DNA of 57,042 nt from Lysobacterales bacterium (GTDB lineage: Bacteria > Pseudomonadota > Gammaproteobacteria > Xanthomonadales > Marinicellaceae), in assembly GCA_027067055.1 (NCBI GenBank), contig JAMOMK010000011.1, positions 1 to 57,042 of the forward strand, read 5' to 3'. This document shows positions 44,990-51,830 of this stretch, in pieces. The stretch's first letter is position 1. The number at the start of each line of letters is the position of its first letter. The translations under genes were made by a program, and so were the position numbers. Under the pieces are notes generated by a model. It ran no database searches. It was not told the DNA's origin and saw only the letters and a list, made by a program, of their open reading frames with translations.

Positions 44990-45204
44990 ATTATTTTAAC
45001 TCCACTTAATTTTTAAGAAAATATTCTTTTACTTTCTTAACGTTACACAAAATATTTAACCTAATATTTTAACTTAGCATTGATTTATTTTGAATCAAAA
45101 CATCAAGTTTTCATTAGATTAAACCTAAAATGCGCGATTATACATGGTTTTAGTCAATAATTGTGCATATGATTCACTTTTCCATTAGTTTTTATTCTCT
45201 CATA

Positions 45205-45214
45205 CGAACGTTTG
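45205..45214. promoter_or_regulatory. Possible PsrA operator
   Basis: CGAACGTTTG is an imperfect palindrome with AAC/GTT half-sites, about 60 bases before psrA and just upstream of a TATAAA (45238-45243). PsrA sites in pseudomonads contain AAAC and GTTT half-sites. The spacing differs, so this is tentative. Confidence 0.25.
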
Positions 45215-45275: not shown

Positions 45276-45902
45276 ATGACAGTCTTATCAACCAAAGAAA
45301 GAATCCTAAACACTACTGAAAAACTAATCTCCGAAAAAGGCTTTTCAGGTATTTCTTTGCGCACAATTAGCACTCATGCCAAGACAAATTTAGCCGCAGT
45401 AAACTACCACTTTGGCAACAAAGAAAAGTTAATTGAGATGATGTTAGAAAGGCGACTCGACACACTCTTCGAATTACGCGTTAATCTTCTTGATGAATTA
45501 GAAAGCGGCAGTTCAAAGCCCTGTAATTTAAAACATATATTAAAAGCATTTATTGCCCCCGCTCTTACCATGAGCAATGACTATCACCAAGGTGGCAAAC
45601 GATTTATGCTCGTTCTTGCACGTGCCTATGCAGAAAAAAGTGAATTTTTACACAGCCTATTGAGTAAGAGGTATGCTGATATTATAAAAAGGTTTGCACA
45701 ATCAATTCAAAGAGCAACGCCTTACCTCGATGAAAATGTTGTTTTTTGGCGCTTTCATTTTATTATGGGTTCTCTTATTTATGTGATGGCAGATTTTGGC
45801 GCATCAACCAAAACATCTGACATGAGTGAATCAGACTATTTCAACCTGTGCTGCAATGAATTAATTGAATTTGCTTTAGCCTCTTTAACTCAGTCAAAAT
45901 AA
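45276..45902 (+). CDS. psrA: TetR-family regulator, PsrA-like
   Basis: A 208-residue repressor. The N-terminal helix-turn-helix (residues 6-52) reads SLRTISTHAKTNLAAVNYHFG, very close to PsrA, whose C-terminal ligand domain binds long-chain fatty acids or acyl-CoA. Known role of PsrA in pseudomonads: it represses beta-oxidation genes and itself until fatty acids bind. Here it lies 7 bases before the fadE-like gene and heads the fad operon, so self-control and control of fadE-fadN-fadA are likely (inference). Confidence 0.85.
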   Translation: MTVLSTKERILNTTEKLISEKGFSGISLRTISTHAKTNLAAVNYHFGNKEKLIEMMLERRLDTLFELRVNLLDELESGSSKPCNLKHILKAFIAPALTMSNDYHQGGKRFMLVLARAYAEKSEFLHSLLSKRYADIIKRFAQSIQRATPYLDENVVFWRFHFIMGSLIYVMADFGASTKTSDMSESDYFNLCCNELIEFALASLTQSK

Positions 45903-45909
45903 ATCAATT

Positions 45910-48267
45910 ATGACTCTGTTACTTTTATCTCTGACTCTCTTAACTTTATTATCAAGCTTTTATTTTTTAAAACTTTCGTATTACTCTATAGCTTTTGTCG
46001 GTTTAATTCTAACATTTAAGTTTTTCTCAATAATTTCTGAAAACCAATTCATATTTCTAATAATCCCCACAATACTAGTTGTTCTAGTATTAACAATTAA
46101 AAAACTGCGACTCCAACTCATTACCAAACCTATTTTTCATGCTTTAAAAAAGGCTAATTCAAATTGGCAAAACTTCAAAAGAATTGACAATGGTTGGTTT
46201 GCTACCGAATTCGAGCGGTCAATTTTCCAAGGAAAACCTCAATTCATTAAGCTAAAACATAAAGGTGAAACAAAACCAAATATTCCACAAGAAACTGAAT
46301 TTTATTTTGTAATTTTAGATCCAAAAACAAATAATTTTACTAAAATAAACAAACTTTCCGCATTGGGAGCTACCGCTTTATTAATTAATAAATGCTACAA
46401 CGGGCAGGGATTTTCAAGTTGTGAAATATCACAAACACTAACCAATATTGGTAAAGTTAATCCTATAATTTCAGCAATTATCGGCATTCTAAATCTAGAT
46501 TCTCTAACAAGTTTCATACACCATTTTGCCAGCCGAAAACAAAAAGAAAAATACCTGCCACTTTTCGCTTCAGCCAAAATGTTGCCATTTCTTAAACCAA
46601 CATCTCTTTACGAAACCCTCGATTCACAAAAGTCATCTATCGAAGGCAGGATTGAGAAAAAATTCATCAAAAACAAAGAAATCATGGGCGTACGTGTTTC
46701 TTTTCAAGATGTTATTTTATTAGGGACCTCTCAATCTAATTGCTTTTACATCAATGTAAACATCAAAGACTTTAACAACCAATTTAAAAACAAAACGAAT
46801 TTAGGCACTGCCATTTGTATAATCAATAAGGAAATTAAAAATGTCACGTATAAAAAAGGTTTAAAGGCCTATGATGATTATTTGCATTATTTTTCTTGCA
46901 CCGGTAACAATGTTTTTATTCCATTTACCCATATTATTAATGAAGAACACGGAATCGGCAAAGGCCTTGAATATTTATATAAAAACCAATGCCATGCCAG
47001 TAATATTTGGCCACTAGCCACATCAATTCCAACCAATAAGACGGCTACACTAACTTCATGGTACTTTGCTCACTTACAAAAACAGAATGGCAGACAACTA
47101 CTAAGTTTCCGAGTAGTTTTATCTAAATTAAATGAGCAATTCAGCCAGTGTTTAAAGTTACAACTCGCCAATAAAATTGCTTTACACAATAATTTAGAAG
47201 ACCCTTTACTAAAATTTACATCAATTTTAAATAAAGAAACCCATATTTCTCAAACAATGAACCAACTCAGCTTGCTGCGAGGAATTTTAGGGTCAAATTC
47301 ACACAACATCAAAACAGAAAGTAAAGTCCGTTCATTTTATAAGGTCGCCCATCTGGCAACAGAACTTGATGGCATGAGCCACGAGATCAATCAACTGCCT
47401 TTAATTAAAAAAGCTTCTTTAGCCTGCCACCCTTATTATTCTCAAGAGGTGAATTTATTAATGAACTCAGATGATAAAAATTCTGCAATAGCATTTGATA
47501 AGTTAATCATTAAACATGTAGGTTATATTTTGCAAAATCTAAGTAAAGTCTGGCTGTATTCATTACGAACATCATTTATTGGACGTTTGTTTTTTCAAAA
47601 AAACAAATACAAATACATGATTAAACGCATGAGTTGTAGCTTCGCTTTTTTATCCGACATCACGCTTATAAACTGGACGTTCAAACACAAAATCAATACC
47701 AGCTTTGCAAGCCACCTTGGAGAGTGTATTCAACACATCATATCATCCATCAGCCTTTACGATTATTATGTTTCAAGTAGTGACAACACCCATGCAAAAA
47801 GATTAGCAAAACTCACCTTGAAAAATGAGTTATACGCCTCTCAAAACGCGTTAAAAAATACTGCAAATTTAGCATTTAATCGCATTCCAACCTTGTTCAT
47901 CAAGTTACTATTATTTCCAACAGGTCGACCATATCATTATATAAATTCCAATAAACCCATACATGAAAATATTGAGGAAATATGTCAATCAGATGGAAGC
48001 AGCAATAGTCCATTTACTAATCATTCTCCTTTTTTAAAAAAAATATACCAAGCGAAACAAAATTTAAATCAGGCAGCTTCAGCTGAAATTGCAGTAACCA
48101 ATGCCACAGGAACACCTGTAACTACTGATAATTATGAACTTTTAATCAACCGTTGTTTGGCTGCTGGCATCCTCAGCGTCGAACAATCAGAACAACTACG
48201 AGAAGCTTACCAAAGCATCTTAGAAATTAAATTAACTAACCATTTTGGAAACTATTATGAAAAATAA
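45910..48267 (+). CDS. Degenerate FadE-like acyl-CoA dehydrogenase
   Basis: A 785-residue protein with the FadE layout: two or three N-terminal membrane segments (about 2-62), FQGKPQFIKL (106-115), and C-terminal landmarks AFDKLIIKHVGY (528-539) and FPTGRPYHY (669-677). It is close in length to E. coli FadE (about 814). But the acyl-CoA dehydrogenase signature ALTxPxAGSD is absent (the region reads PFLKPTSLYETLDSQ), the GGxG segment is missing, and the motif that should read VEGxNxLxR is ELDGMSHEINQ. The FAD and substrate site therefore seems lost. It has no frameshift and is translated in phase with fadN, overlapping it by 11 bases. It may be a regulatory or structural pseudoenzyme of the operon, or a decaying gene. 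Confidence 0.75.
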   Translation: MTLLLLSLTLLTLLSSFYFLKLSYYSIAFVGLILTFKFFSIISENQFIFLIIPTILVVLVLTIKKLRLQLITKPIFHALKKANSNWQNFKRIDNGWFATEFERSIFQGKPQFIKLKHKGETKPNIPQETEFYFVILDPKTNNFTKINKLSALGATALLINKCYNGQGFSSCEISQTLTNIGKVNPIISAIIGILNLDSLTSFIHHFASRKQKEKYLPLFASAKMLPFLKPTSLYETLDSQKSSIEGRIEKKFIKNKEIMGVRVSFQDVILLGTSQSNCFYINVNIKDFNNQFKNKTNLGTAICIINKEIKNVTYKKGLKAYDDYLHYFSCTGNNVFIPFTHIINEEHGIGKGLEYLYKNQCHASNIWPLATSIPTNKTATLTSWYFAHLQKQNGRQLLSFRVVLSKLNEQFSQCLKLQLANKIALHNNLEDPLLKFTSILNKETHISQTMNQLSLLRGILGSNSHNIKTESKVRSFYKVAHLATELDGMSHEINQLPLIKKASLACHPYYSQEVNLLMNSDDKNSAIAFDKLIIKHVGYILQNLSKVWLYSLRTSFIGRLFFQKNKYKYMIKRMSCSFAFLSDITLINWTFKHKINTSFASHLGECIQHIISSISLYDYYVSSSDNTHAKRLAKLTLKNELYASQNALKNTANLAFNRIPTLFIKLLLFPTGRPYHYINSNKPIHENIEEICQSDGSSNSPFTNHSPFLKKIYQAKQNLNQAASAEIAVTNATGTPVTTDNYELLINRCLAAGILSVEQSEQLREAYQSILEIKLTNHFGNYYEK

Positions 48268-50623
48268 TTATACCGTTAAAAAAGCCGCTATTTTAGGTGC
48301 TGGTGTCATGGGAGCACAAATTGCTGCCCATTTTGCCAATGCAGGAATTCCGGTTATTCTTTTTGATTTGCCCAGTGATGGCAAAGACAAAAATGCCATT
48401 ATCAATAAATCCATCAAAATGCTGGGCAAAGCAAAACCAGCTCCTTTAGGTTATAAGTCTGTCACACAGTTAATAGAACCCGCCAATTATGAGACTGATT
48501 TAGCTAAATTACTCGAAGTGGATTTAGTTATTGAAGCAATTGTAGAACGCATGGACATAAAAAAGTCTTTGTACGATAAGATTGAAGATTACATCAAACC
48601 TGAAGCCATTTTTGCAACTAACACATCAGGACTTAGCATTAATGCCTTATCCGAAGTGTTTCCTGAAAAATTAAAACACCAGTTTTGTGGTGTGCATTTC
48701 TTCAACCCACCACGTTACATGCATTTGGTTGAAATCATTCCAACTAAAAAAACTGATGCAAATGTAATTTCTGCTTTAACAGAGTTTATGTCATCAACCC
48801 TTGGCAAAGGTGTGGTTAATGCCAAAGATACACCAAATTTTATTGCTAACAGGATTGGTGTTTTTTCTATTCTTTGTACCATTTATCATGGCATGAAATT
48901 TAATATTCCGCTTGAGACTGTTGATGCACTAACTGGTACACTTATTGGACGAGCAAAGTCTGCTACTTTTAGAACGGCTGATGTCGTTGGTTTAGACACC
49001 TTAAATCACACAGTCAATACCATGCTTAATGGATTGCCCGATGACCCTTGGAATAAACATTATAAAATGCCTTCGTGGTTAACTGATTTAATCAAAGCAG
49101 GAGCCTTGGGTGCTAAAACTCGTGCGGGTGTTTACAAAAAAGAAGGCAGAGATATTAAAATCTTAGATCTTAAGAAAAAAGAATACCGCCTACAAGATGC
49201 CAAAATTGACGATGAAGTCTTAGCTATCTTAAAAAACAGAAATGCAGTCGAACGATTTGAACAATTACGTGCATCTAAATCTAATCAAGCGCAATTTTTA
49301 TACAGCATGTATCGTGATTTATTTCATTATGCAGCTTATCATTTAGAAGAAATTGCGGACAATGCTCGCGAAGTGGACTTTGCTATTCGATGGGGCTTTG
49401 GTTGGAGACAAGGACCATTTGAAATTTGGCAATCAGCTGATTGGAAAAAAGTCACCTCTTGGATAAACCAAGACATGAAAGACGGCAAAACCATGGTACA
49501 AGCTGCTCTTCCTGATTGGGTTGCAGAAATTGATGGTGCTCACACGGCAGAAGGTTCATACGCACCAAAAACCAAGTCATTCCAAGGCCGTCCTGATTTA
49601 GCTGTCTTTAAACGCCAGTTGTTCCCAGAACTAACCATCGGTGAAAAAGCTGATTATGGCACAACAGTGCATGAAGACGATGATATTCGTTTATGGCACA
49701 TAGACGATGACGTCTTGATTGCTAGTTTCAAAACCAAGAAACACATCATAACAACAGGTGTTTTAGCCGGCATTCAAAAAGCTGTTAAAATTGCTGAATC
49801 TGATTTTAAGGGTTTAGTTTTATGGCAGACAAGTGAACCATTTACATTAGGTGCCAATCTTGCCCCTGCCCTACAAGCTGTTGCAGAAGGACGAGTCAAT
49901 GAGGTAGAAGATCTTGTTAATACTTTCCAACAAACATCTCAAGCTTTAAGGTTTTCAAAAGTACCTACTGTTATCGCCGTTCGTGGTATGGCATTAGGCG
50001 GTGGTTGTGAATTTTCCATGAATGCCACATCGGTTGTTACTGCATTTGAATCTTATATTGGTTTAGTTGAAGCTGGTGTTGGCTTGTTACCTGCTGGTGG
50101 CGGATTAAAAGAAATTGCACGACGCACATCAGAAGATTTTGAAACAGGTGATTTATATCCACAAATTGAACATTTCTTCAAGCTTGTTGCTATGGCACAA
50201 GTTGCTGGTTCTGGACTAGAGGCCAAAAAATGGAAATTACTCAAACCGTGTACTGATGTGGTATTTAATACCCACGAAGTTCTGCATGTCGCCAAAGAGA
50301 AAATTAAATGGTTAAGTGCCAAAGGTTATCGCGCTCCAGCAGAGGATCAAAACATTCGTGTTTGTGGTCAAGCTGGCATTGCCAACATGAAGATGATACT
50401 CGCCAATATGATGGCAGGTCGTATGATGAGTCCGCATGATTATGAAATAGCAGTACGTATCGCAACTGTTATTGCTGGTGGTGATGTCGATAGCAACTCG
50501 CTTGTAAGTGAACAATATTTACTCGACTTAGAGCGTAAATTGTTTATCGAGTTGATTCAAATGCCAAAAACATTGGCACGAATTGAACACACATTAAAAA
50601 CTGGCAAACCATTACGTAACTAA
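48257..50623 (+). CDS. fadN: 3-hydroxyacyl-CoA dehydrogenase / enoyl-CoA hydratase
   Basis: About 788 residues. The order is dehydrogenase first (NAD motif AILGAGVMGAQIA near residue 10; NTSGLSI; HFFNPPRYMHLVEII), then a second dehydrogenase C-domain and a C-terminal enoyl-CoA hydratase domain (MALGGGCEFSM, EAGVGLLPAGGGL). This is the FadN (B. subtilis YusL) layout, the reverse of E. coli FadB. It performs the second and third beta-oxidation steps. I chose ATG at 48257, with GGA just upstream and overlapping the fadE-like stop; four more codons upstream are possible. fadA follows by 13 bases. Confidence 0.94.
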   Translation: MKNNYTVKKAAILGAGVMGAQIAAHFANAGIPVILFDLPSDGKDKNAIINKSIKMLGKAKPAPLGYKSVTQLIEPANYETDLAKLLEVDLVIEAIVERMDIKKSLYDKIEDYIKPEAIFATNTSGLSINALSEVFPEKLKHQFCGVHFFNPPRYMHLVEIIPTKKTDANVISALTEFMSSTLGKGVVNAKDTPNFIANRIGVFSILCTIYHGMKFNIPLETVDALTGTLIGRAKSATFRTADVVGLDTLNHTVNTMLNGLPDDPWNKHYKMPSWLTDLIKAGALGAKTRAGVYKKEGRDIKILDLKKKEYRLQDAKIDDEVLAILKNRNAVERFEQLRASKSNQAQFLYSMYRDLFHYAAYHLEEIADNAREVDFAIRWGFGWRQGPFEIWQSADWKKVTSWINQDMKDGKTMVQAALPDWVAEIDGAHTAEGSYAPKTKSFQGRPDLAVFKRQLFPELTIGEKADYGTTVHEDDDIRLWHIDDDVLIASFKTKKHIITTGVLAGIQKAVKIAESDFKGLVLWQTSEPFTLGANLAPALQAVAEGRVNEVEDLVNTFQQTSQALRFSKVPTVIAVRGMALGGGCEFSMNATSVVTAFESYIGLVEAGVGLLPAGGGLKEIARRTSEDFETGDLYPQIEHFFKLVAMAQVAGSGLEAKKWKLLKPCTDVVFNTHEVLHVAKEKIKWLSAKGYRAPAEDQNIRVCGQAGIANMKMILANMMAGRMMSPHDYEIAVRIATVIAGGDVDSNSLVSEQYLLDLERKLFIELIQMPKTLARIEHTLKTGKPLRN

Positions 50624-50636
50624 TAGGAGAAATATC

Positions 50637-51830
50637 ATGAAAAAAGTACAAGACGTTTATATCGTAGAAGCCGTAAGAACTCCTGTTGGTAAAGCACCAA
50701 GAGGTATGTTTAACAAAACCCGCCCAGATGATTTATTATCACACTGCATGTCAACCATGCTTGCACGCCACCCTGATTTTGACAAAAATGAAATTGGCGA
50801 TGTCGTGATTGGTTGTGCTATGCCAGAGGGCGAACAAGGCATGAATATTGCACGAATTGCAAGCTTGCTTGCTGGTATCCCTGATACCGTACCTGCCATG
50901 ACCATTAACCGATTTTGCTCCTCTGGCGTACAAGCCATTGCCATAGCCGCACAACAAATTGCCACAGGTCAAATGAGTAGTGCTATCGCCGGTGGAACTG
51001 AATCCATGAGCATGGTGCCAATGATGGGCAATAAAGTCACAATGAACCCAAAAGTGTTTGAAGATGACAATATCGGCATAGCATATGGCATGGGAATTAC
51101 GGCAGAAAATGTCGCTGATCAATGGAAAGTAACGCGTGAAGCACAAGATGAATTTGCTTACAACTCACATATGCGTGCCTTAAACGCCATAGAAAAAGGT
51201 TACTTTAAAGATGAAATAGTTCCTTACACTATCGAGTCACGCACACCAGATTTAGCCAAAGCCGAAACCATTGTTACCTCAAGAACTGTTGAAAACGACG
51301 AAGGTCCTCGTGCAGGTACTTCTGTTGCTGTGTTAAACAAACTGCGTGCAGTGTTCAAGATGGGTGGTTCGGTTACGGCTGGTAATTCATCACAAATGAG
51401 TGATGGAGCTGGTGCATTGTTGTTGGTTAATGAAGAAACATTGAAACGCTATAACATGACACCAATTGCTAAATACCATGGCTTTTCTGTGGCAGGTGTT
51501 CCTGCTGACATAATGGGCATTGGCCCAATTAAAGCCATACCCAAGGTGTTAGACCTTGCTGGTTTAAAATCACAGGACATGGACTGGATTGAATTGAATG
51601 AAGCCTTTGCAGCACAATCTCTCGCTGTTATTGGCGAATTAGGTTTAGATACCGATAAAGTTAATCCAAATGGCGGTGCTATCGCTCTTGGTCATCCACT
51701 TGGAGCAACTGGCGCTATCCGAGCTGCTACCGCTATTCATGGTTTGCGTAGAACCGGTGGAAAATACGGCATGATAACCATGTGTATCGGAACAGGAATG
51801 GGCGCAGCTGGGATTATTGAAGCGTTGTAG
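50637..51830 (+). CDS. fadA: Acetyl-CoA C-acyltransferase (3-ketoacyl-CoA thiolase)
   Basis: A 397-residue thiolase with catalytic C94 ([10 protein letters not shown]), H353 ([12 protein letters not shown]) and C383 ([12 protein letters not shown]). It carries out the last beta-oxidation step and pairs with FadN. A strong AGGAG precedes the start. Last gene of the psrA-fadE-fadN-fadA run; a hairpin terminator follows. Confidence 0.97.

Follow-up and report, generated by a model that had tools for sequence, protein, structure and literature searches.

What remains of an acyl-CoA dehydrogenase when the residues that make it one are exchanged, and why should the product be kept in an operon of beta-oxidation? 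The question is raised by a gene of a Lysobacterales bacterium (Marinicellaceae, assembly GCA_027067055.1). In the 57,042 nucleotides of contig JAMOMK010000011.1 that were analysed, here called the window, a frame of 785 codons runs on the plus strand from an ATG at 45910 to a stop at 48267 and is open throughout. The order of genes is a psrA-like gene, the frame in question, fadN and fadA. An earlier note, made from the letters alone, had taken the product for a FadE-like protein with preserved ends and landmarks, encoded by a frame that overlaps fadN. This proved correct: the coordinates, the 11-base overlap and the landmarks FQGKP (residues 106-110), AFDKLIIKHVG (528-538) and FPTGR (669-673) were confirmed. 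We are highly confident that the product, called pseudo-FadE in the following, is conserved and is not an ordinary dehydrogenase depending on flavin adenine dinucleotide (FAD).

The active site of pseudo-FadE

For the alignment, 22 full-length homologues of pseudo-FadE were set against 39 intact FadE proteins of the same order (30 FadE1, 9 FadE2). The six partial pseudo-FadE rows did not enter this alignment but were used in a separate count of residues over all rows; the FadE1 loci L044, L051, L052, L068, L070 and L072, which were partial, near-duplicate or had a long extra frame, were also omitted. Intact FadE is invariant at 162 positions. Pseudo-FadE has the same majority residue at 45 of these, every homologue has lost the residue at 92, and at 36 of the 162 a different residue is fixed at 95% or above.

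The catalytic glutamate is E502 in the normal FadE of this genome (P0002, 824 residues, VEGAN intact, G000:C101:24811-27282). Its place is taken by D487. Aspartate is found there in all 27 homologues that cover the position (22/22 of the full-length ones), glutamate in 39 of 39 intact FadE. The placement is framed by shared anchors, K457 = K442 and H522-P523 = H507-P508 in MAFFT, the HP anchor being also found by hhalign. An alignment of P0002 with human ACAD9 ties the motifs to known dehydrogenases and puts the catalytic glutamate on that of FEGTN in ACAD9. In the accessible part of a report on Pseudomonas aeruginosa, the catalytic bases of FadE1 and FadE2 are named Glu441 and Glu442 (PMC11890623); they would correspond to the glutamate replaced by D487 here.

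VEGANILTR as a whole reads LDGMSHEIN, position for position and without gaps; the glycine of VEG is kept, and most of the new letters are fixed across the family of the window. Similar changes are seen at AGSD, [Y/W]xT, RKQF, HGG and EGxNxxxR, which we take to be the motifs contacting FAD and acyl-CoA in the medium-chain and very-long-chain acyl-CoA dehydrogenases (MCAD and VLCAD). In PxAGSD the residues P, A, G, S and D are invariant in 39/39 intact proteins, while pseudo-FadE has L233, E235 and L237 in 22/22 (23/23 covering rows); in the 22 full-length homologues the glycine became L or T and the aspartate E or D. R379, in the numbering of the normal FadE, became A or S, and H475-G476-G477 became L-G-S (22/22). 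T500 turned into E, T508 into I and R509 into N in 22/22, N505 into S in 21/22. None of A250, S252, Y284, T286, R379, H475, G477, T508 and R509 is present in any of the 22 full-length homologues. In RKQF, R is replaced by Q or K and F by N in the 24 covering rows. Among the residues retained are Q407, G476, G503, the glycine that follows the catalytic position, and the HP further downstream. Judged by these alignments, the active site did not decay but was rewritten, and an intact FAD site built from other residues is unlikely.

A rewritten site could still be a neglected one. Entropies were calculated for 19 homologues, dereplicated at 90%. In the rebuilt segment, residues 454-514, 25 of 61 columns are invariant and the mean entropy is 0.61 bits, compared with 1.04-1.69 in seven other segments; among the 725 windows of this length it ranks fifth by low entropy. 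The consensus reads LRxxLGSxxHxIKxE ... HLxxELDGxSHEINQLPLxKK and has 11 of the 61 positions in common with intact FadE. The lowest-entropy window of 30 residues is 481-510. In intact FadE, too, no segment is more conserved than this one (0.50 bits), and part of the constraint may thus be structural. The residues were, however, replaced and then frozen, whereas a merely dead scaffold should relax just there. This suggests that the rebuilt site has a function.

The second-lowest window, 738-767, lies in the C-terminal tail (AVTNATG...NHFG, window 48037-48264, residues 710-785). The C-terminal region of intact FadE, by contrast, belongs to its most variable parts; the tail of pseudo-FadE may be a contact site.

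The earlier note had called the core motifs gone and the active site lost. This holds in so far as no middle or catalytic domain is recognisable and the catalytic and flavin residues are replaced. The VEG motif, however, was exchanged without a gap and with its glycine kept, and the site was rebuilt into the stretch that is conserved best, with Glu turned into Asp, which had been missed.

Around this site the architecture is that of FadE. ACDH_C (PF09317) is recognised in 27 and Acyl-CoA_dh_N in 23 of the 28 pseudo-FadE proteins; one further Pfam match was at chance level. Acyl-CoA_dh_M and Acyl-CoA_dh_1 were found in 0/28 pseudo-FadE versus 22/22 intact FadE (E 0.01). The NCBIfam models of FadE cover most of the length with scores far below their cut-offs (164.4/608, 150/600 and 141.2/1300 bits). 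When the profile of the group was compared with solved dehydrogenases, the match in sequence was confined to the neighbourhood of the N-domain (residues 111-228). A comparison by hhalign with intact FadE gave a probability of 100 over 754 columns at 19% identity, and the AlphaFold2 model has the acyl-CoA dehydrogenase fold, which is backed by a structure search. A gene fusion or an unrelated protein is ruled out by this near-full-length alignment and the fold. Long Foldseek matches (ranks 1-12) deviate by 6.4-19.4 Å root mean square, and the placement of ACDH_C against the core is unconfirmed. All proteins among the best 50 rows of each of two fold searches had the acyl-CoA dehydrogenase fold; metal enzymes were absent from these rows, which excludes nothing. 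The model has helices at residues 2-18, 22-38, 44-62 and 64-82, aligned by hhalign with the same region of intact FadE, and through these hydrophobic helices the protein is probably anchored in the membrane.

By its defining features, pseudo-FadE is thus not a FadE enzyme, though it is built alike, and it would neither bind FAD productively nor dehydrogenate acyl-CoA. As a conserved, selected homologue that by its alignment lacks essential catalytic residues, it is what is called a pseudoenzyme.

Distribution, selection and origin

At E 1e-50 or better, pseudo-FadE is found in 28 of the 33 genomes of the window's family, in 3 of 4 genera, with 36-92% identity. A search of the order at E 1e-45 gave 28 of 398 genomes, all of this family, and none of the other 365; an even sample of the class at E 1e-60 gave 1 of 369, the window's own. 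In both searches at most two candidates per genome were scored among the matches shown, so that a weak copy could escape. A wide or scattered distribution is ruled out by these searches.

In 26 of the 28 carriers the gene stands directly upstream of fadN on the same contig and strand, with at most 41 bases between the matches. In G026, whose fadN match lies on another contig, the contig end reads from pseudo-FadE into a fadN-like frame, which brings the total to 27. The remaining carrier, G007, has no fadN match. The non-carriers are G001, G002, G028, G032 and G011. The first four are fragmented into 340-470 contigs, and G001, G028 and G032 also lack fadN (E 1e-100); G002 has a 42-residue C-terminal piece of pseudo-FadE near a contig end just before fadN, not counted among the carriers. 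G011, in 2 contigs, has no pseudo-FadE, no normal FadE (E 1e-40) and no close FadN. This genome of 4.7 Mb is grouped in the same family, and its only FadN match is 34% identical; either its beta-oxidation set was replaced or its placement is odd. Copies 91-93% identical to that of the window are seen in L042 (CAMZLQ010000011.1) and L039-L041. The former is labelled 'uncultured Alcanivoracaceae bacterium', the latter 'Lysobacterales bacterium', and one of the labels is probably wrong.

The earlier note had also proposed that selection keeps this pseudoenzyme, and had named disrupted orthologues or a ratio of nonsynonymous to synonymous substitution rates (dN/dS) near 1 as marks of a pseudogene. 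Neither was seen. Internal stops are absent from all 28 carriers, six of the frames being cut by contig ends. The dN/dS was estimated for same-genus pairs, and 8 of 36 pairs gave a value, from 0.029 to 0.143, the maximum coming from a pair with a dS of only 0.041; among the 28 pairs without a value, G003, G004 and G005 versus G007 are fragments that overlap barely or not at all and are meaningless. For the window's genome (G000) against G003, G004, G007 and G009 the ratios are 0.055, 0.056, 0.045 and 0.038. Against G003, G004 and G009 they are 0.016, 0.026 and 0.025 for FadE1 and 0.035, 0.029 and 0.029 for FadN. By these ratios pseudo-FadE is under purifying selection; by its dN in more distant pairs, given below, it evolves faster than FadE1 or FadN, yet under strong constraint.

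The earlier note had expected the real dehydrogenase to be encoded elsewhere, and a normal FadE, P0002, is indeed present. The dehydrogenase middle domain is present at six loci of the genome, P0002 included, and the window locus is not among them. FadE1 was found in 25 of the 28 carriers and not found (E 1e-40) in G007, G026 and G027, all of which are fragmented. A second FadE in a genome of family f10 (G041:C71:13695-16034) has one in-frame TAG, possibly a separate decay of a paralogue.

As to origin, psrA-fadN-fadA is found in several families of the order with rlmN-ndk pointing away from it. Family f9 has an intact FadE2 between psrA and fadN (L103, L105); L104 reads FadE2-fadN-fadA, psrA not being seen. 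In family f8 FadE2 adjoins ndk (L107-L109), and fadN was not found in those genomes. The occurrence of an intact FadE in the same slot in f9 had escaped the earlier note. Most simply, pseudo-FadE would be the descendant of a FadE that occupied the psrA-fadN slot, and the shared operon position would make FadE2 its parent. A tree of 29 rows (9 of the 22 full-length pseudo-FadE, 11 FadE1, 9 FadE2) unites pseudo-FadE in one clade with an SH-aLRT (approximate likelihood-ratio test) support of 100, on a very long branch and with odd residue composition in 7 of 9 rows. Support is 82 for FadE1 and 42 for FadE2, and the placement of the pseudo-FadE group is unsettled by the tree. One conversion within the family of the window is likely. 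The FadN of f9 is 50-52% identical to that of the window's family, those of other families 49-56%. The f9 FadN thus does not stand out as close. Either the slot is ancestral and its loss was repeated, or it received a FadE on more than one occasion.

What pseudo-FadE may do

The best overall explanation, to which we give about an even chance, is a FadE-derived pseudo-dehydrogenase that serves as a membrane-anchored, non-catalytic partner of FadN-FadA. For the partnership with FadN-FadA taken alone, without catalysis, the chance is put slightly below even. Fatty acids relieve PsrA. The operon would then be transcribed, and pseudo-FadE, FadN and FadA would be made together, the first two from frames that overlap in this genome. 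The normal FadE would oxidise acyl-CoA, and the membrane-bound pseudo-FadE would dock FadN-FadA next to it or signal the presence of acyl-CoA; its contact or ligand site would be the rebuilt pocket (LGSxxHxIKxE plus HLxxELDGxSHEINQLPLxKK). That it may scaffold FadN-FadA at the membrane or sense acyl-CoA had been suggested in the earlier note. A more far-reaching reading is proposed tentatively, as something that may well be wrong: within a single family of the Gammaproteobacteria the flavin pocket turned, once and for good, into a new site, free of flavin, for a ligand or for catalysis, on a membrane-anchored co-worker of FadN-FadA.

Several observations speak against the non-catalytic partnership. 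A change of Glu to Asp is mild by itself, and a structure of glutaryl-CoA dehydrogenase with Glu370Asp is in the Protein Data Bank (2r0m). The active-site loops are poorly modelled in pseudo-FadE and in the normal FadE alike. The dN of pseudo-FadE is 1.4-2.7 times that of FadE1 or FadN in the more distant same-genus pairs, G000 with G005, G006, G008 and G010. In 7 genomes of other families no FadE stands beside fadN-fadA: psrA-fadN-fadA is uninterrupted by a FadE in L102, L112, L115 and L116, and L101, L113 and L114 have fadN-fadA without psrA or FadE in the stretch read. Finally, the presumed partner bears no visible imprint of a new companion. Of 27 fetched family FadN loci, the 25 with a frame long enough were compared with 11 loci of other families (L100 and L115 are the same place); the family FadN keeps 232 of 253 invariant positions and has 7 fixed replacements. 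FadE1 of the family, compared with 7 FadE1 of other families, keeps 285 of 311 and also has 7. By this measure FadN and FadE1 look like ordinary enzymes.

The strongest rival, owing to fixed His, Asp and Glu residues, is new chemistry in the pocket: the flavin site would have become a different active site, possibly of the metal or acid-base type (H481, E485, D487, H491 and E492 with H465, K468 and E470), acting on acyl-CoA intermediates. H465, K468, H481, E485 and D487 are found in 27/27 homologues, E470, H491 and E492 in 26/27; five of these residues lie inside the best conserved window, 481-510, and invariance of this degree is commoner in active sites than in empty scaffolds. The exceptional homologue, L017, carries Y in place of H491 and Q in place of both E492 and E470. 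Moreover, loop 490-493 has a predicted local distance difference test (pLDDT) score below 50 and the clustering of the residues in space is supposition, and, as this segment is the most conserved one in intact FadE as well, some of the constraint may come from structure alone. We consider this enzyme unlikely, at perhaps one chance in a few.

Still less probable is a regulatory subunit of the real FadE, that is, pseudo-FadE forming mixed dimers with FadE1 and offering a non-reactive site for acyl-CoA. Acyl-CoA dehydrogenases are dimers or tetramers, pseudo-FadE keeps the fold and the hydrophobic N-terminus, and FadE1 accompanies it in most carriers. However, its gene adjoins fadN-fadA and not FadE1, and the 7 fixed replacements of FadE1 over 311 positions are no unusual family-specific change.

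A still active FAD dehydrogenase, holding its flavin by other residues and using Asp as the base, is very improbable. The fold is kept, and Glu was replaced in 27/27 by Asp and not by a neutral residue. But AGSD, the [Y/W]xT strand, the F of RKQF, the Arg of GRxxSLP, HGG and EGANxxTR are all changed, in places from small to bulky (G251 to L or T, S252 to L), and the middle domain is unrecognised in 28/28. A pseudogene or assembly artefact, for which nothing speaks but the loss of the enzyme-defining motifs, is refuted to near certainty by 28 of 28 open frames in separate genome assemblies from 3 genera, by a dN/dS far below 1 (0.029-0.143) and by the fixation of the new motifs.

The locus and its relation to known systems

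Table 1. Features of the pseudo-FadE locus (window positions; residues are those of pseudo-FadE)
Feature	Position	Strand	Basis
Weak candidate PsrA operator, CATAC-GAAC-GTTTG	45201..45214	+	read by eye in the upstream sequences
psrA-like TetR regulator, first gene of the operon	45276..45902	+	NF053516 PsrA 155.5 bits (below cut-off 300); PF17939 and PF00440 above cut-off
Pseudo-FadE, 785 aa, acyl-CoA dehydrogenase fold and ACDH_C domain	45910..48267	+	open reading frame, Pfam and NCBIfam scans, AlphaFold2 model, fold search
Hydrophobic helices at the N-terminus (residues 1-82), probably a membrane anchor like that of FadE	45910..46155	+	model helices and alignment with intact FadE; insertion inferred
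Acyl-CoA_dh_N domain, residues 145-222	46342..46575	+	PF02771, 28.8 bits, cut-off 22.9 (weak)
Former PxAGSD flavin/substrate motif, now LYETLD, residues 233-238	46606..46623	+	alignment
Rebuilt active-site segment, residues 454-514	47269..47451	+	low-entropy segment
Codon of D487, which aligns with the catalytic Glu E502 of the normal FadE	47368..47370	+	ungapped in MAFFT and hhalign
ACDH_C domain, residues 505-773	47422..48228	+	PF09317, 98.2 bits, cut-off 25
fadN (hydroxyacyl-CoA dehydrogenase/enoyl-CoA hydratase)	48257..50623	+	start overlaps pseudo-FadE stop by 11 bases; NCBIfam match; conserved positions kept
fadA (3-ketoacyl-CoA thiolase)	50637..51830	+	NF006553, 668.5 bits, cut-off 567

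A sequence like a PsrA box was seen by eye 5' of psrA in 4 genomes, the full CAAAC-N4-GTTTG only in the L005 copy. Scripted patterns missed the candidate in the window, and their loose form matched other places. As far as the accessible part of PMC6637906 goes, in Xanthomonas TfmR controls fadE, and fadBA adjoin a PsrA-like gene, which resembles the separate site of the normal FadE here. At L002, 5' of the gene of the normal FadE (minus strand), an inverted repeat, ATACGC-AA-GCGTAT, ends 60 bases before the start codon. It resembles an operator of the TetR type, and the regulator may be one like TfmR of Xanthomonas.

The searches of open literature yielded no account of a FadE pseudoenzyme, judged by titles and the beginnings of abstracts. 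To our knowledge, it is unsettled how FadE hands its product over to hydratase, dehydrogenase and thiolase, and whether bacteria have a membrane-bound assembly for beta-oxidation. A FadE kept without its chemistry, in one operon with the complex, would, if the reading is true, isolate the non-catalytic role of FadE. All members of the acyl-CoA dehydrogenase fold that we know of are flavoproteins; new chemistry in the rebuilt pocket would, if real, be a flavin-independent branch of the fold. For annotation there is a warning, as weak profile matches would label such proteins acyl-CoA dehydrogenases.

The closest known relatives are the FadE proteins of the ACDH_C type (PF09317), such as that at G000:C101 and the FadE2 of f9. 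Length, hydrophobic N-terminus, acyl-CoA dehydrogenase fold and ACDH_C are common to them and pseudo-FadE, and the f9 FadE2 even shares the operon slot beside fadN. Pseudo-FadE differs in that the catalytic and flavin motifs are replaced, many of the replacements being fixed in the window's family. The same fold was met in sequence or structure searches in 3-sulfinopropionyl-CoA desulfinase (5af7), DszC and EpxF (9gn5). These presumably still bind flavin, whereas in pseudo-FadE the flavin residues are replaced.

A parallel is human ACAD9, the best solved sequence match of intact FadE. In the accessible part of PMC10716376, binding of ECSIT is described to release the FAD of ACAD9 and to turn it into an assembly factor of complex I, which makes it an acyl-CoA dehydrogenase with a non-enzymatic role. 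ACAD9, however, keeps its enzymatic site and loses FAD on binding its partner, whereas the site of pseudo-FadE is rewritten in the sequence, and its host is a bacterium. Since the site is permanently changed, pseudo-FadE would resemble ACAD9 at most in its way of working and would not be a member of that kind. If the conversion reading is true, it would be a bacterial component of beta-oxidation and the fixed counterpart of what happens to ACAD9 on partner binding.
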